Shown one piece after another: positions 908-32,186 of a DNA stretch of 47,283 nucleotides. The stretch comes from Syntrophomonas sp. (GTDB lineage Bacteria; Bacillota; Syntrophomonadia; Syntrophomonadales; Syntrophomonadaceae). A program made the translations under genes and the position numbers. Within the stretch, counting starts at the first letter, position 1, and the number at the start of each line of letters is the position of its first letter. The stretch is taken from the NCBI GenBank assembly GCA_016841875.1, contig JAENYG010000025.1:1-47283 (forward strand). Direction: 5' to 3'. The notes beneath the pieces were generated by a model. It worked only from the letters and a program-made list of their open reading frames with translations, had not been told where the DNA came from and did no database searches.

Positions 908-1795
908 TCAAAGGGTTTCCATAATTTTTATAAAGGCGGGTCCAAGCAGAATAATAAAAATGACCGGAAAGATGAAAATCACCAGCGGTATAAGCATCTT
1001 AATTGGAGCTTTCATTGCTTTTTCTTCTGCCTGCATGCGGCGGTTTTCCCGGGCCTGCTGGGACTGTACCTGCAGCACATTGGCTATACTTATCCCTAAC
1101 AGTTCAGCTTGTATGATAGCGCTGGCAAAAATAGTCACCTCGTTAATATTTAAACGTTCTGCCATATCCCTTAAAGCTTCCCGCCGCGGTTTACCAATAC
1201 TCATTTCTTTAATGGCTTTGCTGAATTCTTGGCTTAATGCTCCCGGAGTTTTTTCCGATACTTTCTGCAGAGCAGCATCAAAACCTAATCCAGCTTGAAC
1301 ACTTATTGATAATAAATCCAAGAAATTGGGCAACTGCTTGAGAATCTCGTCTTCTCGGCGATTCACTGATGCTCTAAGCCATAAATCAGGCAGCAGTAAT
1401 CCGGCTCCAGCAAATAGCAGAAGATACAAAATGTTTTTAGTAAATATACCTATTATTATACTTATCGTTATAATAATATATTTTATTACTACATAACTAT
1501 CCCCATTTAACCCATAAGGATTACCCGCAGTACGCAACCTTACATCATAGTCTAACTTTTCATTTTGGGGGATAAATTTTTTAAATGCATTTGCAATGGT
1601 GCTTATAGAGCGATTTATCACTCGGGTCTTAAAACTCAATTGCAGTTCGGGAGGCAGATAGGCCTTTTCCTCTTTAACAGTATAAGTCTTCAGTCTCTCC
1701 TGAATTATTATCTGATCCCGATTTCGATTATAAATATATCCCAAGATGAATGAACTCACTGCTATGGCTATAAGGCTTATCATTACTGTTTCCAT
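908..1795 (-). CDS. tadC: Tad pilus inner-membrane platform protein TadC
   Basis: A 295-residue type II secretion F-domain protein (T2SSF). It has an N-terminal membrane segment, a basic cytoplasmic stretch, a transmembrane pair around residues 105-145, the conserved cytoplasmic helical domain (LPNFLDLLSISVQAGLGFD, then GALSQEF and a GKPRREALRDMAERLN segment) and a final hydrophobic helix. With TadB it forms the inner-membrane platform on which the ATPase drives pilin assembly. The start ATG follows GAGGAGG. It lies 26 bases after tadB in the same operon. TadB and TadC are sisters; the position after tadB and the LDLLSISVQAGLGFD motif point to TadC. Confidence 0.9.
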   Translation of the reverse strand: METVMISLIAIAVSSFILGYIYNRNRDQIIIQERLKTYTVKEEKAYLPPELQLSFKTRVINRSISTIANAFKKFIPQNEKLDYDVRLRTAGNPYGLNGDSYVVIKYIIITISIIIGIFTKNILYLLLFAGAGLLLPDLWLRASVNRREDEILKQLPNFLDLLSISVQAGLGFDAALQKVSEKTPGALSQEFSKAIKEMSIGKPRREALRDMAERLNINEVTIFASAIIQAELLGISIANVLQVQSQQARENRRMQAEEKAMKAPIKMLIPLVIFIFPVIFIILLGPAFIKIMETL

Positions 1796-1821
1796 AGGCT
1801 CCTCCTCGCAATAGACCTTGT

Positions 1822-2778
1822 TTAAAACTCAATATTTACAATCCGGCTGATAATATATGCGCCCATTATTTCCATGATTAATGCACTGCCCAGCATTACC
1901 CAACCCCGGCTGTCTTGAAAGAGGAAATAGACTTGCTCTGGATTAAGTACCAGCATAGCTGCCAGCAGTACTACGGGCAGCAAACCAACAACCATACCTG
2001 ACATCTTACCCTGGGCAGTTAAAACTTTTACCTGTTTTTTTATCCGGGTGCGATCCCGCATAGTATCACCTATGTTATCCATAATTGTTGCCAGATTCCC
2101 TCCTACCTGCCGTTGAATGATAATGCCGCTAATAACCAGATTCATTTCTCCGCTTTTTACCCTTTCCCCCAAATTCAACAGAGCCTCTTCCTGATTAAAT
2201 CCCAAGTTCATTTCCCTCAGGCACCAGGCAAATTCGGAAGTAATAGGCTCCGCCATTTCTTTAACCACCGTCTCCATAGCCTGCTGAAAACCGAAACCAG
2301 CCCGCAGGGCATTGGCCATAATTACCAGCGCATCGGCCAGCTGCATTTCAAATGCCTGCAAGCGCTTATCTTTTTTAATATTGATATATATCATAGGAAT
2401 AATGGAAGCCAAAATGAAAAATATAACTGCCAGCCAGAAGTTGCCACTGACAGCAAATACTATTATCGGCAATAAAATTATAGCTGCCAGGCTGATAGTG
2501 ATATATTCTTCACCTTTGAAGGGTATGCCGGCACTGACCAAACGGCTCTGCAGGCGGGCAGTAAAAGATCGGGCAGCAAAGAGAGAAGATGCTTTCTTCA
2601 TCATAGAGCTCAAAGTCGTCCGCACCGTAACCTTGTCATGAATACGATCCTGCTCAGTCTGACCTATCACGTTTCTAAGCCGCTCTTTGTATACATCCCG
2701 GGTGGAAAATGTCTTTATAATTCCATTGATCGCAAAGACTACTACCAGCAGAATAAACCCGGATATTATCAGCTGCAT
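1822..2778 (-). CDS. tadB: Tad pilus inner-membrane platform protein TadB
   Basis: A 318-residue T2SSF-domain membrane protein. There is one N-terminal hydrophobic helix (residues 3-22), a transmembrane pair near 93-132, the helical F domain with DALVIMANALRAGFGFQQAME, a conserved QRQVGGNLATIMDNI segment, and C-terminal membrane helices. It is the partner of TadC in the assembly platform for Flp pili. The start ATG has AGGAGG eight bases upstream. The gene sits directly after the ATPase gene, in the standard order cpaF-tadB-tadC. The QVGGNL signature is typical of TadB rather than TadC. Nothing looks damaged. Confidence 0.92.
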   Translation of the reverse strand: MQLIISGFILLVVVFAINGIIKTFSTRDVYKERLRNVIGQTEQDRIHDKVTVRTTLSSMMKKASSLFAARSFTARLQSRLVSAGIPFKGEEYITISLAAIILLPIIVFAVSGNFWLAVIFFILASIIPMIYINIKKDKRLQAFEMQLADALVIMANALRAGFGFQQAMETVVKEMAEPITSEFAWCLREMNLGFNQEEALLNLGERVKSGEMNLVISGIIIQRQVGGNLATIMDNIGDTMRDRTRIKKQVKVLTAQGKMSGMVVGLLPVVLLAAMLVLNPEQVYFLFQDSRGWVMLGSALIMEIMGAYIISRIVNIEF

Positions 2779-2812
2779 TTATAAACCTCCTAATTATGTA
2801 TGTATATAATAT

Positions 2813-4135
2813 TTATGCAAAAAATTCATCTGGAATTATTATTCCTGCAGTTTTCAACTTATCGAGACATTTAGGTTTAATACCAGTAGCACGGTGCCTT
2901 CCCTGAACCCTGCCGCGTTCATCAACACCGGTCTGGTCAAATATAAATATGTCCTGCAAGGTAATTACCTCACCTTCCATACCAACCACTTCAGTAATAT
3001 GAGTTATTTTCCTGGTACCATCAGACATGCGGCTTTGATGCACTATGAGATCAATAGCCGAAGCTATCTGCTCCCTAATGGCTTTCATAGGCATTTCCAT
3101 ACCAGCCATTAAAACCATAGTCTCCAGCCGAGACAAAGCATCACGCGGGGAATTAGCATGGGCGGTAGAAAGTGAACCGTCATGCCCGGTATTCATAGCC
3201 TGCAACATATCCAAGGCTTCCCCACCCCGGACTTCTCCAACTACAATTCGGTCAGGACGCATACGCAGTGAGTTGCGCACCAGATCGCGGATAGCAATTT
3301 CCCCTTTGCCATCTATATTGGCTGGTCGGGTTTCCAGGGTAACTACATGATCCTGATGCAGTACTAACTCAGCCGAATCTTCTATAGTTATTATCCTCTC
3401 ATCATGGGGGATAAACCCAGAAATTATATTTAAGGTACTGGTCTTCCCAGCTCCGGTACCACCAGATACTATTATCGACATACGTCCCTTTACACAAGCC
3501 TCCAAATATTTAGCCATATGAGAAGTCATTGTATTATTTCTAATCATATCGGCTGTTTTCAAAAGGTTCTTGGAGAATTTACGAATGGTCAATATACAGC
3601 CGTTCAACGCCAGAGGAGGTATTATAGCATTAACACGTGACCCATCGGGCAACCGTGCATCCACCATGGGCATACTTTCATCAAGACGCCTTCCCAATGG
3701 GGATATTATCCTTTCAATTATAGTATGCAGATGCAAATCATCGCGAAATACCACATTAACCCTTTCAATCTTACCCCTTCGCTCTATATATACCTGTTTG
3801 GGGCCATTAACCATGACTTCAGATATAGTCTCATCTCTGAGCAGTGGACTCAAAGGCCCGAACTCCATGACTTCATCTGTAACCTGCTGCACAATCAGCT
3901 CTCTTTCGCTGCGGGGCAGGTGATCATAATCTTTTTCAATAATAGCATCACTAATGTTCTTTATCTTGGTCTCATTATCTTCCCGGCGCTGGTTGATAAG
4001 TGAATCCTGGCCTAATTCTCTAATAATTTCCCGGTGTATCTGATAAACCAAATCAAGATAGCGGGAAGAGGCCTGGTCTTTCTGGCCATTGGTATTTATT
4101 ACTTGATCGGTTTGCAATCTGCTTAAAAGCGACAT
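2813..4135 (-). CDS. cpaF: Tad pilus assembly ATPase CpaF/TadA
   Basis: A 440-residue secretion ATPase of the CpaF/TadA class (type II/IV secretion ATPase superfamily). The N-terminal part (about 1-110) is a helical domain. The ATPase core shows Walker A SGGTGAGKTS, an acidic EDSAEL Asp box, the PDRIVVGEVRGGEALDMLQA Walker B region and a TGHDGSLSTAHANSP His box. It powers extension (and in some species retraction) of Flp pili at the cytoplasmic face of the platform. The start is ATG at 4135 behind a GGTGGG site. It sits between cpaE and tadB with short gaps. All catalytic motifs are present, so it should be active. Length fits the family. Confidence 0.96.
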   Translation of the reverse strand: MSLLSRLQTDQVINTNGQKDQASSRYLDLVYQIHREIIRELGQDSLINQRREDNETKIKNISDAIIEKDYDHLPRSERELIVQQVTDEVMEFGPLSPLLRDETISEVMVNGPKQVYIERRGKIERVNVVFRDDLHLHTIIERIISPLGRRLDESMPMVDARLPDGSRVNAIIPPLALNGCILTIRKFSKNLLKTADMIRNNTMTSHMAKYLEACVKGRMSIIVSGGTGAGKTSTLNIISGFIPHDERIITIEDSAELVLHQDHVVTLETRPANIDGKGEIAIRDLVRNSLRMRPDRIVVGEVRGGEALDMLQAMNTGHDGSLSTAHANSPRDALSRLETMVLMAGMEMPMKAIREQIASAIDLIVHQSRMSDGTRKITHITEVVGMEGEVITLQDIFIFDQTGVDERGRVQGRHRATGIKPKCLDKLKTAGIIIPDEFFA

Positions 4136-4158
4136 TCAGCCATCCCACCTAAATTACA

Positions 4159-5346
4159 TTATTTTTCTTTCTCAATCATTTCAAATAAATCTATTAGACT
4201 TCTCGATATGGGAGCCTTGGGACTCATATTAAGAAAAGGTGTTCCCCGGTTAACTGAAGAAACAGTTATTTTAAAATCACTTGGAATAGAAGCAGTTATT
4301 TTCATTCCTAATACCTGTTCTACATCCTGCGGTTCCAGACCTACTGAAAGTGAGGATGAACGATTTAGTATCAATTTAGTACGAGGCAGCATCTTAAGGG
4401 ATTCAAGTATATCAATACCTTTTTTAATATTTTTTATAGTTGGAATATCCAGTGATATTAAAAGCAGTACTACATCTGACATTTCCAGGGCAGTAAGGGT
4501 AGTATCATCCAGAAATGTAGGTGTATCTACAATAGTATAGCTGTACATCTGCCTGCAGATTTTGAGTACAGTTTCCACCCCAAAGGAAGTAACCAGTTCT
4601 CCCAGTTCAGGTTTATGAGGGGCTGATAGAATCTTGGCCCCGCTGCGTTCATAAAAATACTCATCTACCAGGTCAGCGGTGAGCTCCCCTGATTCCTGCA
4701 TAAGTTCGGCAATGGTTTTTCTGGGATTAATATTCATCATTAGACTTATGTCTCCAAACTGCAAATCCAGATCAACCAAGGCTACATCATTAGGGTGCTT
4801 TAAGGCTGCTGCCACCGCTAGATTGCTGGCAATGATGCTCTTACCAATACCGCCTTTGTTACCAAATACCGTAACAATCTTGGATGTTTGTAAAACCATA
4901 TCCTGTTTGGAGACATGGACAACCTCTGGCCGAGAATCATTTTTATTATCGCTTTTGCTATCTGCTTTTTTACGATAATCCTGGGTAATCTGCTTAACCC
5001 GATTGATTACTTCATTTATTATCAATGGTCTTATAAATATTTCCTTGACCCCGGCCTGCATAGCCCTTTTTAGCAGGTTAAGATCTTCATAGTCAGAAAC
5101 CAGAATAACCTGAGTCATAGGATGATGCATATGTATGTAACTAGCCAGCCCCAAACTGTCCTGTTCCGAAATACTGACATCAATAATTAACACTTCCGGT
5201 TTAGCCTGTGCTACCATCTCCAGGACTTCACCGCCCTGGCTTACTTCGGCGATTACATCTATATCAGTATCTCCTTCTAATATTTTCAGTAGATACTCCC
5301 TATTCTCTTGATTGGAATCAGCCAGCAGCACTCGAATTGTTTTCAT
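4159..5346 (-). CDS. cpaE: Pilus localisation ATPase CpaE/TadZ
   Basis: A 395-residue two-domain protein. The N-terminal 120 residues form a response-regulator receiver fold: an acidic pair near the start (ADSN), a likely acceptor Asp in LIIDVS, and an Arg where the invariant Lys normally lies (FIRP instead of FxKP). The C-terminal part is a MinD/ParA-like P-loop ATPase with deviant Walker A KGGIGKS, then DLDLQFGD and a VDTPTF segment. TadZ/CpaE proteins position the Tad machine in the cell. I choose ATG at 5346 because a GAGGTGAG site precedes it; an in-frame GTG lies three codons upstream. It lies between cpaB and cpaF in the operon. The altered receiver Lys suggests that phosphorylation may not control it in the classical way. 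Confidence 0.92.
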   Translation of the reverse strand: MKTIRVLLADSNQENREYLLKILEGDTDIDVIAEVSQGGEVLEMVAQAKPEVLIIDVSISEQDSLGLASYIHMHHPMTQVILVSDYEDLNLLKRAMQAGVKEIFIRPLIINEVINRVKQITQDYRKKADSKSDNKNDSRPEVVHVSKQDMVLQTSKIVTVFGNKGGIGKSIIASNLAVAAALKHPNDVALVDLDLQFGDISLMMNINPRKTIAELMQESGELTADLVDEYFYERSGAKILSAPHKPELGELVTSFGVETVLKICRQMYSYTIVDTPTFLDDTTLTALEMSDVVLLLISLDIPTIKNIKKGIDILESLKMLPRTKLILNRSSSLSVGLEPQDVEQVLGMKITASIPSDFKITVSSVNRGTPFLNMSPKAPISRSLIDLFEMIEKEK

Positions 5347-5392
5347 ATCCCTCACCTCTTAACTTTCATACTCTTACAAAATTCATTCTGCT

Positions 5393-6097
5393 TTATTGAA
5401 GAAAATTATTCAGCTTAAATGGAGCTAAATTAAATTTAGAATCATCAACCGGTGATCTCAAGAGCAGCCTTATATTCCCGCGTTCGTTCCCCATCACCAA
5501 AGACTGAGCCTGCTCAGGTGTTACGGCCAGAGTGAGTGTTTTTACTTCGCTTGATTCTTTGGAACTCTTGGTGCCTACCGCTAATACTTCCAGATCCTGC
5601 AGGATAAGTATGGTGTTAGCTGGATCAGCATCTGAACCTGTACTTTCAATATCAATAGTTAGCATAACATCCACATGGTCACCAGTCTGTATATTAAATG
5701 CTACTGCACTCACTTCATTAACTGGTATAGATACTGCACGTTTGTTCAATGGTATTCCATAAGCCAGCCGGCCGATTTTATCTTTTTCTCCTACCAATTT
5801 TTCTTTTAATACTTCTTCTCCAGCAGCTATATCACTGCTAACTATTTTTCCCACTGCTTCTGATACATCCCTTACTCCATTAGGATGAACATACCTGGCA
5901 GGTACCTCCTCGGTCATTAGTTGGTCGGATTTAATAATTTCATCCTTATGTATCGGCTGAGCAGCTCGAACCACAGTAACCAGATCATCCGGTCGATATT
6001 TTTCCTCTACCTGTCCCAGATAAACATAAAATAATCCTGCTGCAAAGAGTCCACATATTATTGAAATAAACCAGTATTTTTTACTTCCTTTTAGCAC
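5393..6097 (-). CDS. cpaB: Flp pilus assembly protein CpaB/RcpC
   Basis: A 234-residue protein with an N-terminal membrane anchor (about residues 8-28) and a SAF/antifreeze-like domain: VVRAAQPIHKDEIIKSDQL near 42-60, then the RcpC-type segment with GKRAVSIPVNEVSAV-like sequence and GDHVDVMLTI near 135-150. CpaB proteins are extracytoplasmic pilus assembly factors; in Gram-negatives they work with the CpaC secretin. No secretin gene is seen here, as expected for a monoderm. The start is GTG at 6097 with AAGGGAG eight bases upstream. It lies between the TadG-like genes and cpaE. Length is within the family range. Confidence 0.9.
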   Translation of the reverse strand: MLKGSKKYWFISIICGLFAAGLFYVYLGQVEEKYRPDDLVTVVRAAQPIHKDEIIKSDQLMTEEVPARYVHPNGVRDVSEAVGKIVSSDIAAGEEVLKEKLVGEKDKIGRLAYGIPLNKRAVSIPVNEVSAVAFNIQTGDHVDVMLTIDIESTGSDADPANTILILQDLEVLAVGTKSSKESSEVKTLTLAVTPEQAQSLVMGNERGNIRLLLRSPVDDSKFNLAPFKLNNFLQ

Positions 6098-6127
6098 CCT
6101 CCCGGCTCCCTTCCCTTAATAATATAC

Positions 6128-7102
6128 TTATTCACAAAGCTCTACCGCATAAACGCCATAATCCGGAGCATTATCATCAATATATCCATTTGGAGCGATA
6201 ATTGGCTGAAGATAAGTACCCCGTATCGCCTGCTGTTTATCCTCTTCGGTTCGTTCTTCTAACAATACAGCAGCAAAACCAGTTATCGTATATTCTTGAT
6301 TAGCTCCATGTCCTTCATCATCAACACCTACCGGAACAAAAACAACCCTGGGACATCCCAGATCATAACTATCCGCACTGCATTCAGGGTCATGAGTACA
6401 CCCTAATAATCTATAATCAATTGCATCCCGGCAATCTTTTGCGTTCTTGTTCCCAGGTACTACGTTTAACGTTTGTCCAATGTATACTGGATTTTGGCAT
6501 CCATACATGATTCCTGGAGCAATGTCCCACTTGATTTGCTGTCCGTCTATATTTACGTAACCAAACCATCCGTTGTCTCCATCGCCGCCACCTTCTTTTA
6601 TTATTAAACTAGGATTAGTTTCTTCTTCAAAATTAGGTAATTCAGATTGTCTAATGCCAATAGGTATTACTCCATTACCATTGGTAAACCCCCCTACCGG
6701 GCCAACCCGGGCTTTAGCATGGGCTTTCACATCACCCGTGTTTATTCCCAGGACAGGTGCAAAAACCATACCCATATCTGTATCTACATCTCCACTTAGG
6801 GAGATTGCTTCGCCCTCATCGTTATATCCTAGAGTAAACGTAACCTCTGCTAAATCAAAGCCGTTCATCTGAGCATAGTTTTGAGCTACAGCCAGGGCTG
6901 AGCTTGGATCATCCGGAAGCTCACGAATTCCAGCCATTACTGCTGCATCTATTGCATTAGAAGCTTTTGCCCGCTCTGAGTAAAGCAATCCTACATCGAC
7001 TACCATTGCCGCAGCACCCATAATAACTACCAGTCCTAGAGCTACCAGAACCATAACTGCAGCAGACTCATCAGCAAACATTCTTTTCAGCTTTTTAAGC
7101 AA
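6128..7102 (-). CDS. TadG-like pilus assembly protein, copy 2
   Basis: A 324-residue protein of the TadE/TadG-like class (N-terminal PF13400-type region). An N-terminal charged stretch precedes a single hydrophobic helix (about 14-38), then a conserved ASNAIDAAVMAGIRELPDD segment typical of Flp-type minor pilins, and a long extracellular part with several cysteines. It is a tandem paralogue of the gene just upstream: the first 130 residues align closely and both end in a VYAxELCE tail. The start is TTG at 7102 behind a run of G residues (GGGGGG). Such proteins are thought to be minor pilins or anchors processed or inserted by the Tad machine. Cysteine clusters suggest disulfides outside the cell. 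Confidence 0.85.
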   Translation of the reverse strand: MLKKLKRMFADESAAVMVLVALGLVVIMGAAAMVVDVGLLYSERAKASNAIDAAVMAGIRELPDDPSSALAVAQNYAQMNGFDLAEVTFTLGYNDEGEAISLSGDVDTDMGMVFAPVLGINTGDVKAHAKARVGPVGGFTNGNGVIPIGIRQSELPNFEEETNPSLIIKEGGGDGDNGWFGYVNIDGQQIKWDIAPGIMYGCQNPVYIGQTLNVVPGNKNAKDCRDAIDYRLLGCTHDPECSADSYDLGCPRVVFVPVGVDDEGHGANQEYTITGFAAVLLEERTEEDKQQAIRGTYLQPIIAPNGYIDDNAPDYGVYAVELCE

Positions 7103-7130
7103 TACTTGCCCCCCTCTAATAAATCCTTAT

Positions 7131-8120
7131 TTATTCGCACAGTTCCGCAGCATATACTGTAGATTCAGTTATAGTGCCACTATCGTCAATCTCACCTGCT
7201 ACTACTTCAATCTCTTCTAAAAAATATCCCATTATACAATCGACTCCTGTCATCGGATCTTCCTGTTTCCACAGGAAAATCGTAGCAAAGCCTGTTACGG
7301 TAAATAGCTTGGTATCAGCGCTAATGGTACCTAGAGGAACTACTACTAAGCGGGGGCAATCATCATAATGTACTTCCCAAGTACATTCGGGAACATGACC
7401 ATATACATCTGTACATCTATCTATTCGTGCCTCAAGACTATTTTCTGCCTGTTGTTCTACAACACCCGTTTTAACGTCCAGTACCTGCCCTTCATATATA
7501 TCGCCATCGTAGCCCCATTCGATATTATCCCAAAGATCCTGGTTCAGATTGACTGGAAATGAAGTGGGAGGAAGAGCTAAATACCCATTCCAACCTGTAT
7601 CACCATCACCAGCACCTTCCCTTAGTATAATCTCGGTACCCTTTGCATAAAGGTCTTCGGTTAATCCAAACGGTACAATACCAACTCCCTCACCACCACT
7701 AACACTGGCGGCAGGACCTACTCTGGCTTTGGCATGAGCTTTGACATCACCGGTATTTATTCCTAAAACGCGGGCAAATAACATATTCATATCTGTGTCT
7801 ACATCTCCGGTGATAGAGATTGCTTGCCCCTCGTCATTGTATCCTATCGTAAAGGTAACCTCGGATGGATCAACCCCGTTTGCCTGGGCATAGGTTTGGG
7901 CTAATGACAGGGCTGTGGTTGGATCATCCGGAAGTTCTCGCACCCCGGCCATAACCGCAGCATCGACTGCATTGGAGGCCTTCATTCTAGCTGAATAAAG
8001 CATCCCAGCATCTATTACCAAGGCTGCGCAACCCATAATAACTACCAGCCCCAGAGTTACCAGAACAGTAGCTATACCCGAATCATCAAAAATAAAATTG
8101 TTAATTTTTTTAGGTAACAT
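7131..8120 (-). CDS. TadG-like pilus assembly protein, copy 1
   Basis: A 329-residue TadG-like protein with a hydrophobic N-terminal helix (about 14-37), the MKASNAVDAAVMAGVRELP motif and an extracellular C-terminal part with paired cysteines and an AELCE end. It is a tandem duplicate of the next gene in the operon. I place the start at ATG 8120, where AGGGG precedes it and the N-terminus (MLPKK) matches that of its paralogue (MLKKL); a longer reading from 8156 would overlap tadE by 11 bases and lacks a good ribosome site. The extracellular halves of the two copies have diverged much more than the anchors, so they may have different partners or binding roles. Confidence 0.85.
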   Translation of the reverse strand: MLPKKINNFIFDDSGIATVLVTLGLVVIMGCAALVIDAGMLYSARMKASNAVDAAVMAGVRELPDDPTTALSLAQTYAQANGVDPSEVTFTIGYNDEGQAISITGDVDTDMNMLFARVLGINTGDVKAHAKARVGPAASVSGGEGVGIVPFGLTEDLYAKGTEIILREGAGDGDTGWNGYLALPPTSFPVNLNQDLWDNIEWGYDGDIYEGQVLDVKTGVVEQQAENSLEARIDRCTDVYGHVPECTWEVHYDDCPRLVVVPLGTISADTKLFTVTGFATIFLWKQEDPMTGVDCIMGYFLEEIEVVAGEIDDSGTITESTVYAAELCE

Positions 8121-8145
8121 ACAAATACCCCTATCCTTACGGACT

Positions 8146-8559
8146 TCAGTTAACATTCTCTATTCTCATCACATACTCTGCCGACATGTCTATTGGGTTT
8201 GAAACGATACTGCTTACGATTGGAGTTATTATGGTCTCCTGATAATCTATCCTTACCGTCAGCGGATCACCAACCGAACGATTTGCATAAACATCAGGAG
8301 TAATGGTAATATTACCGTCTACAATAGCAAGAAATGAATCATTGCCTTCTATGTGATCCATAATCTCCCGGTTGGTTTGCCCAACTACTCCCGCCCGAAC
8401 TCCTTCCCGGGCCAAGTCATGCATAATCATATAGGCTCCCAGTATTCTTCCAAACTCAATAATGCTAAATAAAATCAATAAAAGCACAGGAAGAAGAATA
8501 GCCATCTCCACCATGCTCTGAGCTTTCTTAGATTTAAACATTTTTCTAATTATCTTCAT
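8146..8559 (-). CDS. tadE: TadE-like pseudopilin
   Basis: A 137-residue TadE family protein. A short basic N-terminus leads to KKAQSMVEMAILLPVLLLIL, the typical TadE motif with the conserved Glu (position +5 after the cleavage-like site) and a single membrane helix, then FGRILGAYMIMHDLAREGVRAGVVG. TadE is a minor pseudopilin processed by the prepilin peptidase in Tad systems. Its ATG lies three bases after the tadV stop codon and uses GGTGG inside the end of tadV as ribosome site, so the two genes are translationally coupled. Length and layout are standard. Confidence 0.92.
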   Translation of the reverse strand: MKIIRKMFKSKKAQSMVEMAILLPVLLLILFSIIEFGRILGAYMIMHDLAREGVRAGVVGQTNREIMDHIEGNDSFLAIVDGNITITPDVYANRSVGDPLTVRIDYQETIITPIVSSIVSNPIDMSAEYVMRIENVN

Positions 8560-8562
8560 AAT

Positions 8563-9090
8563 TTACCACCATGTTACCAAATAGGCACTTACTGCCCCCA
8601 GGGCTATAGCTAGCGCATAAGGAAAATATATTCCGGAATTGCTTTTTTCAATACTTTCCTTCAGCTTAATAGTTTTAACAAATGATAAAAAAACTCCCAC
8701 TAACAATTGATGGATGGTTTTCAGGAGTTTGCCTCTTAATAAGAGCAACCCTACAGCAATAAGCCCTCCCCAGAGTGCCATATACACAAAAGTATGAAAA
8801 GCAAATAGATAGCCTTTAAAAACTCCAACTACCCCCAGCAGTTTAACATCCCCAGCACCCATGCCGCCCATGGCAAAAGGTATAAAGAGAAAAGCTAATC
8901 CGGCAGCAAAGCCTTTAAGGGAAAACACTAATCCCTCCAGGCCTCCGGTATATAGATTCCATCCTAATCCAAAAATCAAACCGCTTAATATAAGGTAATT
9001 GGGAATACGCTGTTCTCGCTGGTCATAGACTACAGCAATCAGCAGAATCAATCCCAATATCACATCACTGAGGACCAATTCGATATTCAT
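8563..9090 (-). CDS. tadV: Prepilin peptidase TadV/CpaA (A24 family)
   Basis: A 175-residue polytopic membrane peptidase with about five or six hydrophobic segments. It has both catalytic aspartates of the A24 aspartic peptidases: one in VYDQREQRIPN (near residue 23) and one in GMGAGDVKLLG (near residue 80, the GxGD motif). It lacks the N-terminal methylase domain of PilD, as is usual for TadV/CpaA. It cleaves Flp prepilins and TadE-type pseudopilins after the Gly in the GQGMAEY-type site. It lies between flp and tadE; the gap to flp holds a strong hairpin (9128-9157). Confidence 0.93.
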   Translation of the reverse strand: MNIELVLSDVILGLILLIAVVYDQREQRIPNYLILSGLIFGLGWNLYTGGLEGLVFSLKGFAAGLAFLFIPFAMGGMGAGDVKLLGVVGVFKGYLFAFHTFVYMALWGGLIAVGLLLLRGKLLKTIHQLLVGVFLSFVKTIKLKESIEKSNSGIYFPYALAIALGAVSAYLVTWW

Positions 9091-9182: not shown

Positions 9183-9350
9183 TTAACCGCCAAGATTTGT
9201 ACCTACCTCATTTACTTTGTTCCCTATTGCTCCACCTAATAATGTGAAACCAGCTATACATGCTATAGCTATAAATACCAGTATCAGTGCATATTCTGCC
9301 ATGCCCTGACCTTTTTCTTCGCTTACTAATCTTGTGAAAGTTTTTAACAT
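9183..9350 (-). CDS. flp: Flp-type major pilin
   Basis: A 55-residue Flp pilin. The N-terminal basic leader with EEKGQG is followed by MAEYALILVFIAIA, the classic Flp motif: cleavage after the Gly, then a hydrophobic helix with the conserved Glu-Tyr pair. The tail is short and polar and ends LGG. It has a very strong ribosome site (AGGAGGTG) and is the first gene of the minus-strand pilus operon, as expected for the major subunit. The processed pilin would be about 40 residues. The upstream region (9351-9784) must hold the operon promoter, but no convincing -35/-10 pair stands out. Confidence 0.93.
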   Translation of the reverse strand: MLKTFTRLVSEEKGQGMAEYALILVFIAIACIAGFTLLGGAIGNKVNEVGTNLGG

Positions 9351-9784
9351 CCTCTTCACCTCCTAAATTAATTAAATTCTGAATACTTCTATGGTAGCCT
9401 CATTTTTCCATGCCTTCAAGGTAGTTTTTTTAAAAGAATTTAAGACATTTGGTCATCACCCAAAAGGATTATACGGTATTAAATCCGGTAAATTATATCA
9501 TTCTATTGTATCTATTGTTACATCAGCAAAAAATGAGACTAATAGACGTATTTACATTATTATATAAAACAATTTATTATTAAATAGGACTTTAGTATTC
9601 TTTTCGCACTATATGTCAAGCTTTCCATGTTGGGAAATTATGTCCAAAAGTACTATTAATTATAGTATATTACATATTATCGTATTTTCCAGAATAAAGT
9701 TTAACTGCTTTATGTTAAAATACATTGAAGTTACTGCAATTGTTTACCATGGTTTATAACTACATTAAATTAAAGGAGTCGGTC
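9351..9784. other. AT-rich divergent intergenic region between flp and the lipoprotein gene
   Basis: This 434-base stretch separates the minus-strand pilus operon from the plus-strand lipoprotein gene. It contains no plausible gene. It is AT-rich and must carry promoters for both directions, but I find no pair of hexamers good enough to name. No known riboswitch motif (including c-di-GMP types) was recognised on either strand. Confidence 0.5.
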
Positions 9785-11056
9785 ATGATGAAAAACTCAT
9801 ACATAAAATATGTTTTTCTCTCCTTATTTGTCATTTTTCTATTTCTTTCTTCGGGCTGTTGAAAATCATCTCAACCTCAGGATGAGGTTATCAACGGTTA
9901 TTCACTTGCATTTGCAGAACTGGAAAGTGAGCATATGAGCCGTATTTCAATTAATTACAGCACCGAATCTGCCTATTTAGCAAACAAAGCTTTTGATATA
10001 GGCATATATGACAGCGGTTCATTGCTGGGAAAGACTACTTTAGGCAATGGGGATAATTTTCAAAAAGAATTAGAACCCGGGAAATATCAGATAAAGGTGA
10101 TAGACCCAGGCGATTATACCTTTGTCTATCTACCCGGAGAAGAAATCGAACTGCAGGATGGTATAGGAAAGATATATGCTATGGTAGAAAACTCCAAGAA
10201 CAGCACTGCTTCATCCGAACCGGTGAACTGGGAGCTTTATTATACTAAAAGCGGAAGTCCGGCGGGCGAAGAGCCAATAACCAGTGGCACCATCCCCTCT
10301 CTTAATCCGGGAGAATTATATACTATTGGATATAATCTGGAAGATTATGAGTTCAGTGACGCCGGCAACTATATGTTTAGACTTCTCAATCCAGGCAGTG
10401 ATGGCAGCAAGAGCGAGTGCTGGAGCGGCGCCATATACTGCTGTGGTCCGATCACAACTACTGAGGCAGCAATAAGCCTGGTCCCTAACCCCGGCAAATT
10501 AGTAATCAGCTGCAGAACTACCGGCGATGCCCCCTCAGGAGCATGGTATGAATTTATTGTAAATGATACCCAAAATGACCATAAAGAGGTTAGTAGAAAC
10601 AGCTTAAAAGCTGGTAGCAGCTATTCGGTACAACTTCCTCCCGGATCATATCAGGTAATTGAAAGTAAAACTAATGGCGCAGTTTCTTACAGTAAGTCTA
10701 TTAACGGAAATATAGCGCTGGGTTCAGGTCAAACGGTTTATCTTACGCTTACTAATCGTTTTCCGATAACCAAAGGCGCTCTCACCATAAGCGTATCTAC
10801 CGAAGGTAATGCCCCGGCAGATAGTACATACGGATTTACTATTAAAGGTCCGGAAGGTACTCTTACCAGGACTATTAAAGCAGGACAGACTGTATCAGTG
10901 GATTTAACCCCGGGAGCTTATGAAGTAACAGAAAGTAATACTGGTGGAGCAGCACAGGTTAGAAAATCTCCTGAAGGTAGTATTACCATCAAATCCGGCC
11001 AGACAAGCAATTTGAAAATAACCAACATCTACCCCAGCGAAAGCGAAGTTCAATAA
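9785..11056 (+). CDS. Surface lipoprotein with in-frame TGA after the lipobox (selenoprotein or nonsense allele)
   Basis: The frame opens at ATG 9785 behind AAAGGAG with a classic lipoprotein signal: a Lys-containing start, a hydrophobic core and LSSGC as lipobox (Cys is codon 25). Codon 26 is TGA (9860-9862); the same frame then runs open for 397 codons to 11056. The remainder holds beta-rich repeats: an N-terminal domain (about 45-135), then two related modules ending in ITNxxP-like strands (about 230-330 and 330-420), each with GxYxVxES, resembling prealbumin/SpaA-like folds. If TGA is a stop, only a 25-residue lipopeptide is made, plus perhaps an internal start at 9935 with a weak ribosome site. 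A perfect hairpin (9873-9889) just after the TGA fits bacterial SECIS spacing. The frame shows no other decay. A single TGG-to-TGA change or a sequence error are alternatives. Confidence 0.7.
9873..9889 (+). promoter_or_regulatory. SECIS-like hairpin downstream of TGA
   Basis: AACCTCA (9873-9879) pairs perfectly with TGAGGTT (9883-9889) around a GGA loop. The loop begins 17 bases after the TGA at 9860-9862 and starts with G. Known bacterial SECIS elements sit directly downstream of the UGA with a G at the start of a small apical loop, so geometry agrees. Chance is not excluded. Confidence 0.35.
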
Positions 11057-11112: not shown

Positions 11113-11184
11113 AAACATGATGACAGTTATCCTGTTTCAAAAAAGATAAACCTAAAGAAAAACAGAATAACTGTCATCATGTTT
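11113..11184. terminator. Long inverted repeat between convergent genes
   Basis: Two 25-base arms (11113-11137 and 11160-11184) are complementary with one mismatch, around a 22-base A-rich loop. The repeat lies between the plus-strand lipoprotein gene and the minus-strand pilin gene that converge here, so it probably acts as a bidirectional terminator. The arm sequence is unlike the GGGACA repeat family elsewhere in the window. Confidence 0.55.
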
Positions 11185-11207: not shown

Positions 11208-11366
11208 TCATATCTGATTGCCGATATCATTTACTTTTGCAGATAAGGCAGTACCCATCATCATATAACCAAACATGGCCGCCATTGCAATGAATAATAA
11301 AATCATAGTATATTCAGCCATACCCTGACCATTTTCATCTTTAGTTAACCTGATCAACACATCCAT
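11208..11366 (-). CDS. Flp-like pilin 2
   Basis: A 52-residue Flp/Fap pilin-like protein. A basic start with KDENGQG leads into MAEYTMILLFIAMAAMFGY, keeping the cleavage Gly and the Glu-Tyr pair, followed by an unusually methionine-rich helix and a short polar tail (AKVNDIGNQI). It resembles the main Flp pilin at 9183-9350 in its tail (KVN-[DE]-[IV]-G). The start ATG at 11366 has GGGAGGT seven bases upstream. It lies about 135 bases downstream of a third Flp-like gene on the same strand. It may be an alternative or minor pilin processed by TadV. Confidence 0.88.
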   Translation of the reverse strand: MDVLIRLTKDENGQGMAEYTMILLFIAMAAMFGYMMMGTALSAKVNDIGNQI

Positions 11367-13253: not shown

Positions 13254-14330
13254 ATGAGGAATATGCGGGGTGCGATTAGGAAGTTTTGTCTTGATGAGAG
13301 TGGAGCGGTCATGGTACTAGTAGCTCTGGGCATGGTGGTCTTAATTGGCATGGTAGGTCTGGTAATAGACAGCGGGCGGGTATACCTGGAACAGCAAAAA
13401 GTACAAAATGCCCTGGATGCAGCTGCTCTGGCCGGGGCTCAGGAACTACCTGATACCAATGCGGCCACCCTGACAGCCCTGGATTATGCTTCTTTGAACG
13501 GCTTGAATCCCGATGATGTGGTTATCTCATTCCCTACCAGCAGTCTGATGACAGTGGAGTATACAGAGGATGTGGATATGTATTTCCTGCCGGTGCTCAA
13601 CATCAATCAAAAATCGGTTAATGCTATTGCAGGAGCGGCCCAGGATTATTCTCCGGCCTGGGGAGCTTATACCCTCTTTTCCGGCAGCAGTACAACGCGC
13701 CTGCAAATCAATGGCAATACCTATTATATAGATGGCTCTTCCCATACTAATGATGACTTTAAAGCCAATGGCAGCAGCATAACTCTTACCGGCATTTGTG
13801 ATGCAGTGGGCAGCATCAGCGTGAATGGAAGCAGTATGAATATTCCTCATCGTCAAGCCTACTCCAGTTATATTGAACTGCCTGACTACTCCGAGCAGAT
13901 TCAGCAGCAGGCTGAAACGGCAGGTAATGTATTCCATACCGATGTTCATTACAATGGTAATAACGTGAATGTAGAAGACCCAATTTATGTGGAAGGGGAG
14001 GTACATTTGAATGGCAATGATATAAGTGGGTGTGGTGCCATTCTGGCCGAGGAAAACATCCATATTAATGGCAATATGATAAATAACAGCAGCAGCGATG
14101 CCATCTGCTTATATTCTCAGGGGGATATACATGTAAATGGAAACGATATAGAAATTCATGGTATTTTATATGCACCAAATGGTGAAATACAACTTAATGG
14201 CAATAATATTTGTATCACAGGCAAGGTAATTGCCAACACCATTTCTATAGCCGGCAACACCATTACCATAAGCGATGATGATACAGCCCTTGAGACCCTG
14301 CCTTCATCTGGCTGCAGACTAGTAATTTAG
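13254..14330 (+). CDS. TadG-like anchor with NGN-repeat beta-helix domain
   Basis: A 358-residue protein. The first 115 residues match the TadG-like proteins of this locus: DESGAVMVLVALGMVVLIG helix, then KVQNALDAAALAGAQELPDTN and a YxEDVDMYFLPVLNIN segment. The remainder carries at least seven short NGN or NGS motifs, each followed by alternating hydrophobic residues (INGNTYYI, VHLNGNDI, IHINGNMI, IHVNGNDIEI, IQLNGNNICI), spaced roughly 20-25 residues apart near the end. This is typical of a right-handed beta-helix or bactofilin-like stack (DUF7305-like). Start ATG 13254 has AAAGGAGA. It probably sits on the cell surface, held by the N-terminal helix, as a pilus-linked adhesin or tip component. 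It converges with a small minus-strand gene, overlapping its stop by four bases. Confidence 0.82.
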   Translation: MRNMRGAIRKFCLDESGAVMVLVALGMVVLIGMVGLVIDSGRVYLEQQKVQNALDAAALAGAQELPDTNAATLTALDYASLNGLNPDDVVISFPTSSLMTVEYTEDVDMYFLPVLNINQKSVNAIAGAAQDYSPAWGAYTLFSGSSTTRLQINGNTYYIDGSSHTNDDFKANGSSITLTGICDAVGSISVNGSSMNIPHRQAYSSYIELPDYSEQIQQQAETAGNVFHTDVHYNGNNVNVEDPIYVEGEVHLNGNDISGCGAILAEENIHINGNMINNSSSDAICLYSQGDIHVNGNDIEIHGILYAPNGEIQLNGNNICITGKVIANTISIAGNTITISDDDTALETLPSSGCRLVI

Positions 14331-29852: not shown

Positions 29853-32186
29853 ATGAGAGATATAGTTATCGCTATAACTGCAGCCAGCTATAGTGGGAAT
29901 AAAGGGGCAACTGCAATGCTGCAAAGCTCTATAAAACAACTATATGACATATATGGTCATAGACTGAACATTAATTTAATGTCTACATATCCAATGGAAG
30001 ATAAAAAACAGGTTCCACATGACTTTGTTAAAGTTATATCGTGTAAGCCTGAAGCACTTGTTTTTATTGCTTTTCCATTATCGATACTTTATATAATGTT
30101 GAAGTGGATTCGTCCTGTTGGTTATCTTATAGAGAAAAATGAAATTATTAAAGCTTTTAAAAACTCGGATTTAGTTATAGATGAAGCTGGTGTTTCATTT
30201 GTAGATAATCGAGGATTAATAATGAACATCTATGCTTTCATCTGTGCAGCAGTACCGATGTTGGTCGGTACTCCAGTGGTGAAATATTCGCAGGCACTTG
30301 GAACATTTAATTCAATTATTAATAGAACCCTTGCTAAAATAATACTTCCAAAATGTAAGTTGATTTGCGCAAGAGGACAAATAACTCTTGCTAATCTAAA
30401 AGAAATAGGAATTGAGAAAAACGTTATATTATGTGCTGACGGAGCTTTTACTATGGAGGATAGTATTTATTGGAATCAGAAAATATCAAAAATCACTGAG
30501 GAAGATGAATTTTATAAAAATAATGTTGTGGGCTTATCGATCAGTTCAGTGGTTGAAAAGAAATGTATTAAGCTAAATATTGATTATAAGAAAGTTATGA
30601 TAGAATTTATAAATTATTTAAATAAAGAAGATTACCATGTCTTATTAATTGCCAATGCTGCCAGGATGAACAGTAATAAAACAAGAAATAATGATTTAAT
30701 AGTATGTGACTCAGTATATGAAGGTATAACAAACCAAGATATGGTTCGGTGGTATCATAAAGAAATGGATGCGGAAGAGATTCGTGCTTATATTGGTAAA
30801 TGCCGGGTTTTAGTTGCATCACGCTTTCATGCAATGATTGGTGGCTTAGAACAAAAGGTTCCTGTATTATTGATTGGTTGGAGTCACAAATACCAGGAAG
30901 TTTTAGATATGTTCCATCTAGGACGATTTACTATTGATTTTTCTGAATTACAGTTTGATACATTAAAAAAAGAATTTGAAAATTTCATGGAGCATGAGAA
31001 TGAAATAAAACAGAAGATTTTAGATAATTTGGAGACAGTTCAAACTAGCTCTAGATTAAATATTGAATATGTTAATAAAATTTTAAATGATATTGAAATA
31101 AATTCTAAGAAAAAGGCGGGATTGCTTAATATAAATAATCCCGATATTTATCTGGGTGAACATATAGCATGCAGGATGGGTTATTCTTCTGATGAGGTAA
31201 TCCGCAGAAATGCAGCTTCGGGAGGAATGGTTACTGCATTGCTATGCCATTTATTGGAAACAAATCAAATTGATGGAGCTTGGGTTACAAAAAGCGTAAT
31301 CGAGAATGGCAAACTTAATTATAGTACTTACATAGCAACCACAACAGATGGAATAAAGGATTGTTCCTCCAGTATTTACATGGATATGCCTTTATTAAAA
31401 CATATAAATCTTGTTAAAGAGTTTCAAGGAAAAGTAGCTGTAGTTTTGACTCCATGTTTGATGAGAGCTCTTACTATCATAATGGAAGAAGACATAGCTT
31501 TAAAAGATAAAATCGTATTAAAATTATCACTTTATTGTAGTGGAAATCATTTGCAGAGAGCAACATTATTACCTTTAGAAAAATTGGGTATATCGCTTCA
31601 AAATGCTAACAGAATATATTATAGAAGAGGCCATTGGAGAGGTATGTCTACAGTGGTGTATCAAGATGGGACTGAAAAATCTTTGTCATATACGAAAACA
31701 ATTTGTGCATATAAGAATGCATATTTTTTTGCAAAAAATCCTTGCATGACATGTCAGGATCATTTTGGTAAAACATCAGATATTAGTTTTGGTGATATTT
31801 GGCTGAAAGAAATGAAAAATAACCCAATAAAACATACTAGTTGTATTATTAGAAAGAAACGAGCACTTGTTATGTATCAATCTGCTGTTAAAGCTGGAAC
31901 TATTATTGATAAACATATTAGCAATGCGGAAATTGTGCACAGCCAAAAACGTGCTTTAGTCTTCAAGTATAATTGTGCAAAGGCTAAAGTTGCTTATTAT
32001 AACAAGCAAGGCAAGAGTATTCCTATAGATATAAGTGCAAAATGCAAGTGGAATCATAAATTAGCATACTATTTGGCAAATAAAAATAATGAATATTCCA
32101 AAAATTATTATGATAGATTGAAAAAGATTCCTATGCCCTTAATATATTATTATATGTGTTTTATTAGAGTTTTACTTAGTTTCTAG
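29853..32186 (+). CDS. Fusion of polysaccharide pyruvyl transferase and F420-hydrogenase beta-like domain
   Basis: A 777-residue two-part protein. Residues about 1-410 match the polysaccharide pyruvyl transferase (CsaB/WcaK) fold: AASYSGNKGATAMLQSS at the start, DEAGVSF near 110, and SRFHAMIGGLEQKVPVLLIGW near 325. Residues about 425-735 match the F420 hydrogenase/dehydrogenase beta-subunit family: RRNAASGGMVTALLCHLL, a TPCLMRAL motif, LYCSGNH and CMTCQDHFGKTSDISFGDIW, keeping several cysteines that could bind an FeS cluster. In glycan clusters these two domains occur as neighbouring genes; here they are one chain. It would add pyruvate to a glycan, with an unknown redox role for the second half. 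ATG 29853 has GGAGG ten bases upstream. AT-rich. Confidence 0.85.
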   Translation: MRDIVIAITAASYSGNKGATAMLQSSIKQLYDIYGHRLNINLMSTYPMEDKKQVPHDFVKVISCKPEALVFIAFPLSILYIMLKWIRPVGYLIEKNEIIKAFKNSDLVIDEAGVSFVDNRGLIMNIYAFICAAVPMLVGTPVVKYSQALGTFNSIINRTLAKIILPKCKLICARGQITLANLKEIGIEKNVILCADGAFTMEDSIYWNQKISKITEEDEFYKNNVVGLSISSVVEKKCIKLNIDYKKVMIEFINYLNKEDYHVLLIANAARMNSNKTRNNDLIVCDSVYEGITNQDMVRWYHKEMDAEEIRAYIGKCRVLVASRFHAMIGGLEQKVPVLLIGWSHKYQEVLDMFHLGRFTIDFSELQFDTLKKEFENFMEHENEIKQKILDNLETVQTSSRLNIEYVNKILNDIEINSKKKAGLLNINNPDIYLGEHIACRMGYSSDEVIRRNAASGGMVTALLCHLLETNQIDGAWVTKSVIENGKLNYSTYIATTTDGIKDCSSSIYMDMPLLKHINLVKEFQGKVAVVLTPCLMRALTIIMEEDIALKDKIVLKLSLYCSGNHLQRATLLPLEKLGISLQNANRIYYRRGHWRGMSTVVYQDGTEKSLSYTKTICAYKNAYFFAKNPCMTCQDHFGKTSDISFGDIWLKEMKNNPIKHTSCIIRKKRALVMYQSAVKAGTIIDKHISNAEIVHSQKRALVFKYNCAKAKVAYYNKQGKSIPIDISAKCKWNHKLAYYLANKNNEYSKNYYDRLKKIPMPLIYYYMCFIRVLLSF

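Follow-up and report, generated by a model that had tools for sequence, protein, structure and literature searches.

In nearly all known selenoproteins, selenocysteine (Sec) takes the place of cysteine and serves as a redox residue. Syntrophomonas wolfei harbors ten selenoproteins, every one of which belongs to a known redox family (PMC1794560). In the vicinal Cys-Sec selenoproteins, SaoB, SaoC, SaoL, KCU-star and MbdU, a cysteine and a Sec are adjacent in the chain (PMC13188914). The 2026 inventory of the prokaryotic selenoproteome comprises 119 families, none of which is described as carrying Sec at the +2 position of a lipobox, as residing in a Tad locus or as pilin-like (PMC13188914). Likewise, no report of a Sec-containing lipoprotein or of Sec in a Tad pilus was found in the open-access literature. 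Stop codons in pilus loci are represented by the CS3 pili, the production of which relies on bypass of an amber codon according to the account of Jalajakumari et al. (1989) cited in PMC1914089.

The gene described here lies in a Tad/Flp pilus locus of Syntrophomonas sp. and encodes a putative lipoprotein whose reading frame is interrupted by a TGA directly after the lipobox cysteine. The window is the entire stretch of DNA that was analyzed, 47,283 nucleotides of contig C24 (JAENYG010000025.1) in a 3.97 Mb draft assembly of 90 contigs (GCA_016841875.1, hereafter G000). Comparison of sequences argues that the TGA is likely a Sec codon at which SelB and a hairpin direct insertion, and that the full-length lipoprotein would consequently be selenium-dependent. 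Like the fdhA and selD genes of G000, the gene combines an in-frame TGA with a small hairpin that has GG at the start of the loop and lies 16–20 nt downstream. In contrast with those genes, the proposed Sec lies outside a redox domain, has no Cys homologue and sits beside the lipobox of a surface protein. The absence of a Cys-bearing homologue at the site also distinguishes the lipoprotein from almost all known selenoproteins.

The adjacent Cys and Sec are shared with the vicinal Cys-Sec selenoproteins; the Cys of the lipoprotein, however, is expected to be lipidated and hence to offer no free thiol. SaoB (NF040727) was considered as a precedent for Sec at lipobox +2 and rejected, as its Sec is internal, within the mature protein (FQDC-TGA-SN) and not at a lipobox. 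No match to NF040727 was found anywhere in G000 or in the genomes of two further species of the genus, G003 and G004. As in CS3, the stop codon lies within a gene of a pilus locus and would have to be bypassed for the full-length product to be made, whereas the CS3 stop, as the cited account presents it, is an amber codon and not UGA, involves no Sec and belongs to a different pilus. The lists of similar folds and a TapA profile liken the protein body to TapA and to Gram-positive pilins and adhesins with SpaA/Cna-B-like immunoglobulin domains, from which the lipoprotein differs in having a lipobox instead of a sortase motif and in its location in a Tad/Flp pilus locus. Set apart from the inventory families by their descriptions, the gene probably belongs to a previously undescribed selenoprotein family in which the Sec site is unusual.

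The gene and its in-frame TGA

The coordinates of the gene, the elements within it and its neighbors are collected in Table 1. The start of the G004 orthologue, like that of the G000 gene, is preceded by a G-rich site. From the ATG, the residues before the TGA are MMKNSYIKYVFLSLFVIFLFLSSGC. The first-pass annotation, made from the window alone, had described a lipobox ending LSSGC, then TGA, then 397 open codons; this description holds, with KSS directly after the TGA and the open codons spanning 9863–11053.

Table 1. Features of the lipoprotein gene and its surroundings, in window coordinates.
Feature	Position	Strand	Basis or remarks
Tad/Flp pilus assembly genes: two T2SSF, CpaF-type ATPase, CpaE-type, CpaB/RcpC, TadE/G-like proteins, prepilin peptidase	908..9090	-	
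Flp pilin gene KGQGMAEYALILV, on the 9183 side of the lipoprotein gene (upstream)	9183..9350	-	
Ribosome-binding site AGGAGT, inside AAAGGAGTCGG, before ATG 9785	9774..9779	+	Sequence
Lipoprotein gene with in-frame TGA	9785..11056	+	423 residues including the proposed Sec26, then stop TAA; homologues in G003, G004, G011, G012
Signal peptide and lipobox FLFLSSGC	9785..9859	+	PROSITE-type pattern PS51257; AlphaFold helix 5-22
In-frame TGA, proposed Sec26 (+2), adjoining lipobox Cys25	9860..9862	+	TGA kept in G004
Codons 27-50, from the TGA to the first in-frame ATG downstream (M51)	9863..9934	+	Protein-like evolution; few synonymous changes between TGA carriers
SECIS-like hairpin AACCTCA-GGA-TGAGGTT	9873..9889	+	7 Watson-Crick bp, 10 nt after the TGA, loop 17 nt downstream
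Beta-rich surface domains: TapA-like stretch (residues 129-217, sub-cut-off), then SpaA/prealbumin-like repeats	9935..11053	+	Profiles, AlphaFold, fold comparison
Second Flp-type pilin gene NGQGMAEYTMILLF, downstream of the lipoprotein gene	11208..11366	-	

A scan of G000 and G004 for a hydrophobic residue, Gly or Ala, Cys and then TGA returned 32 sites. Among the 30 sites that were read, more than 58 open codons follow the TGA in two orthologues only (397 and 396 codons); the other matches are short frames or gene overlaps, and the scan found no second lipobox-TGA gene in either genome. A narrower scan of G000, G003 and G004, in which Lys was required after the TGA, yielded no further case. 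In the scanned genomes, the lipobox-TGA arrangement is one gene and not a class.

Homologues were sought at the level of the order and of the class, both searches covering the same 63 genomes. The orthologue in G004, another species of the genus, is 63% identical and has TGA at the same codon (LSSGC-TGA-KSSEP). A third species, G003, encodes Leu at this position (LVGGC-CTA-KSS), and two members of another genus encode Ala (G011) and, ahead of a run of N, Ser (G012); neither Cys nor Trp occurs in any of these three homologues, the ones readable there. The homologues in G001 and G013 are cut at contig edges before codon 26 and are uninformative on the TGA codon, none was found in G002, and viral contigs contained no further homologue. 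The G001 homologue is seemingly cut at residue ∼152, with the same coding stretch at two contig ends (C14, L013; C152, L016), one of which continues into unrelated DNA, a pattern resembling that left by a mobile-element insertion.

The simpler reading offered at first pass was a TGG-to-TGA mutation, a phase-variation-like off switch or a sequence error, all of which are disfavored since the diverged species G004 shares the TGA and no homologue has Trp. Ser in homologues had also been taken as a sign against Sec. One homologue from the other genus (G012) does have Ser, which weakens the claim of a chemical role for Sec and leaves the claim of decoding unaffected, because the position is freely variable.

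The known TGA carriers are two, G000 and G004, both of one genus. The synonymous p-distance between them is 0.80, near saturation; the shared TGA has therefore been maintained by selection or else arose on two occasions. The two genes have the stretch TGTTGAAAATCATC in identical form, which favors common descent of the TGA. Markers conflict on the species tree of G000, G003 and G004, such that loss in G003 is indistinguishable from gain on a G000 and G004 branch; whichever topology holds for the three, the TGA need have been gained only once.

Between G000 and G004, the non-synonymous and synonymous distances are 0.25 and 0.64 in the signal peptide, 0.22 and 0.36 in codons 27–50 (6 synonymous changes in 16.7 sites, which are small counts) and 0.23 and 0.80 in the remainder of the gene. 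A weaker synonymous drop in codons 27–50 is also seen against G003. Judged by these distances, the sequence on either side of the TGA is evolving as protein, and the fewer synonymous changes after the TGA form the pattern that an embedded RNA element would cause.

Selenocysteine machinery and the hairpin

The presence of selA, selB, selC and selD had been named at first pass as a check on Sec decoding, and all four are found in G000. The selA, selB (TIGR00475, 371 bits) and tRNA-Sec (anticodon UCA) genes lie in a row on contig C41. The selD gene is itself interrupted by a TGA (RAAG-TGA-AAK), as are two full-length fdhA genes (ARL-TGA-HS and ART-TGA-HA). From this set of genes, it follows that G000 very probably decodes UGA as Sec. 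An FdhA homologue devoid of an in-frame TGA (C46:18570-20585, L077) occurs beside the TGA-bearing ones, and this genome may encode formate dehydrogenases both with and without Sec.

The perfect 7-bp hairpin with a GGA loop that the first-pass annotation had noted 10 bases past the TGA was recovered at that place. The published bacterial SECIS model specifies a loop of 3–9 nt, a stem of 4–16 bp, a G in loop positions 1–2, a spacing of 16–37 nt and a folding energy of −7.5 kcal/mol or lower (PMC13188914). In loop, stem, G and spacing, both carriers agree with the model: G000 has 3 nt, 7 bp, G1 and 17 nt, and G004 has, in the same place, 5 nt (UGGAC), 6 bp, G2 and 16 nt. The folding energy straddles the limit of the model and varies with the stretch folded, at −7.4 kcal/mol in G000 and −6.5 kcal/mol in G004 over 33 nt and at −7.5 and −8.6 kcal/mol, respectively, over 45 nt. 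The hairpin of selD in G000 (TCCAGG-GGC-CCTGGA, 6 bp, spacing 20) also lies near the limit, at −7.3 kcal/mol. One fdhA pair of G000 has the hairpin GTGGCC-GGTCT-GGCCAC (loop GGUCU, spacing 18), and the hairpins for the other pair are weak (−2.4). The SECIS-like place and loop type claimed for the element are thus matched both by the published model and by the selD and fdhA elements of the same genome.

The frequency of such hairpins depends on the rules applied to the 1629 TGA triplets in the window. A Watson-Crick stem of at least 7 bp with GG or GU near the loop start and SECIS spacing follows 0.3% of them, and 0.7% when the stem is lowered to at least 6 bp; under loose rules, with G-U pairs allowed and any G in loop positions 1–2, 6% reach 7 bp. 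Random synonymous codings of the genes have a stem at least as long in 1.4% of cases for G000, 4.5% for G004 and 41% for G003. In G003, which has Leu at the site, the outer pairs are broken and an inner 4-bp remnant with the loop GGU is left. The sixth pair is C-G in G000 and G-C in G004, a compensatory change that came about via two residue changes, Q to V and E to Q. Covariation amounts to one pair in three sequences and is no better than shuffles, 160 out of 500 of which reach it. An Rfam search of the window gave no match above threshold. Taken alone, the hairpin is modest evidence and could be due to chance; the conserved TGA is strong evidence.

Lipobox, protein body and pilus locus

The lipobox cysteine of lipoproteins carries lipid on its sulfur. 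In a regular-expression test, the lipobox after the signal peptide matches the PROSITE PS51257-type pattern. The stricter G+LPP pattern, which takes Leu, Val, Ile, Ala or Met at −3, is passed by three Sec-less homologues and failed by both TGA carriers, which have Ser at −3. This departure leaves room for a free Cys-Sec pair, which may be carried on an uncleaved anchor. AlphaFold (mean pLDDT 72, five sequences) models the signal helix at residues 5–22, low confidence from 23 to 51 and then beta domains to the end, with residue 26 predicted to sit in a disordered tether. No Cys of the protein emerges as a conserved partner of Sec, the only other conserved cysteines being C212 and C219, which occur with or without Sec.

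A new type of selenolipoprotein with a Cys-Sec pair had been envisaged at first pass. Sec decoding of the codon that follows the lipobox Cys is the part retained; a functional redox pair is disfavored, as the site is elsewhere Leu, Ala or Ser and never Cys, lipid is expected on the lipobox Cys and no Cys tracks Sec. With the predicted tether and the absence of a partner Cys added to the residues of the homologues and the expected lipidation, a catalytic Cys-Sec pair is a weak proposal. The homologues suggest that Sec26 is not a classical active site.

The top folds in the Foldseek and VIA-align lists are chains of Gram-positive pilins and adhesins, with whole-chain TM-scores of about 0.2; given scores this low, the modeled likeness would be one of domain type only. 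Pfam gave sub-threshold matches to SpaA and DUF5979, and the match to TapA (TIGR04087) at residues 129–217 has an E-value of 4.7e-6 and 26.3 bits, below the cut-off of 80. A sequence search for solved structures found none. Distant relatives in G006 (L071) and G060 (L070) have the middle domain in common, are devoid of a lipobox and lie near a sortase-like gene, and the C-terminus of L071 is an LPRTGG-type wall anchor. From these sequences, the same middle domain seems to be combined with two different types of surface anchor.

The neighbors of the lipoprotein gene are the same in G003, G004 and G011, which gives it a conserved place in the Tad locus. Between the gene and the minus-strand pilin gene downstream, window positions 11113–11184 contain a 25-nt inverted repeat (96% complementary, 22-nt spacer), the sole such pair in the window and probably a two-way terminator. 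Farther downstream, 13254–14330 encodes another TadG-like protein (PF13400 and DUF7305), which is conserved in G004 (82%) and has only a 32-residue match in the stretch of G003 searched. In the polysaccharide cluster of the window, a single open reading frame (29853–32186) joins a polysaccharide pyruvyl transferase to FrhB/FdhB-like domains, an unusual-looking fusion.

Alternative readings of the TGA

The conserved TGA, the conserved hairpin, the Sec machinery and the coding evolution on both sides make it very probable that ribosomes read through the TGA, with Sec the most likely residue to be inserted. Points that count against Sec decoding are the lack of a Cys homologue, the restriction to two carriers in one genus, the weak covariation and the borderline hairpin energy. 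Regulated readthrough with an ordinary amino acid is the main rival, owing to the precedent of stop-codon bypass in CS3 pili. An ordinary tRNA, for example a near-cognate Trp-tRNA, would then read the codon leakily as the hairpin slows termination, and full-length protein, free of selenium, would be made in a small amount. Such a mechanism would suit a site that tolerates Leu, Ala and Ser and is predicted to fall within a disordered tether, in which an ordinary residue would do no harm, and a bypassed amber codon is on record as governing pilus production in CS3. It would, however, leave aside a whole Sec system in the genome and a hairpin whose loop type and spacing are like those of the selD and fdhA elements, and readthrough with canonical residues is quite rare in prokaryotes (PMC1914089). 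We consider leaky readthrough unlikely, albeit deserving of more weight than the readings that follow.

A decaying gene, in which the TGA arose as a genuine nonsense mutation and the downstream frame has stayed open only through the recency of the loss or the use of M51 as a new start, is distinctly improbable. The gene does appear dispensable, having not been found in G002 and being seemingly truncated in G001, and M51 is conserved. Decay is nevertheless hard to reconcile with the same TGA in two diverged species and no other lesion across 396–397 codons, with a strong ribosome-binding site and signal peptide retained before the TGA and with codons 27–50 that evolve as protein, and a start at M51 would yield a cytosolic copy of a surface protein. 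It is very improbable that the 25-codon upstream frame is a product in its own right, a signal-peptide-derived peptide ending at a true stop, with the downstream frame translated separately. A ribosome-binding site of its own and a complete signal peptide speak for that frame, yet the signal peptide and the body form one open frame in G003 and G011, and in G012 as far as it is readable, and no obvious ribosome-binding site precedes M51 in G004. A sequence or assembly error at 9862 might be suspected in a draft of many contigs; G004 (JAENZE01), a different species with an assembly of its own, has the same TGA, and two identical errors are so unlikely that this reading is scarcely credible.

A proposed selenium-dependent display of a surface protein

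With the TGA taken as a Sec codon, SelB carrying Sec-tRNA(UCA) would bind the hairpin, and Sec would be inserted at residue 26, beside lipobox Cys25. The product would be exported, probably anchored by lipid, and would act at the cell surface as a pilin- or adhesin-like protein encoded in the Tad/Flp pilus locus. When selenium is lacking, ribosomes would stop after 25 residues and the surface protein would not be made, and the codon would thus at least gate the gene on selenium. We suggest tentatively, as a possible but doubtful extension, that Sec serves mainly as a translational gate and not in catalysis, such that display of the surface protein depends on selenium through a codon at the beginning of the mature lipoprotein, a site that would accept nearly any residue.

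If the Sec codon is indeed mainly a gate, the lipoprotein would be, to our knowledge, the first selenoprotein with a Sec site free of redox constraint, as well as the first to carry Sec at lipobox +2. If Sec is inserted, the gene raises the question of whether cells can keep a Sec codon for control rather than for chemistry. A standard open reading frame call begins the gene at M51 and drops the signal peptide, by which such genes escape annotation, and searches that rely on Cys homologues are unable to find them. Formate dehydrogenases of syntrophic bacteria are selenium-dependent, and Sec decoding in this lipoprotein would likewise tie the supply of selenium to a pilus locus in these organisms.
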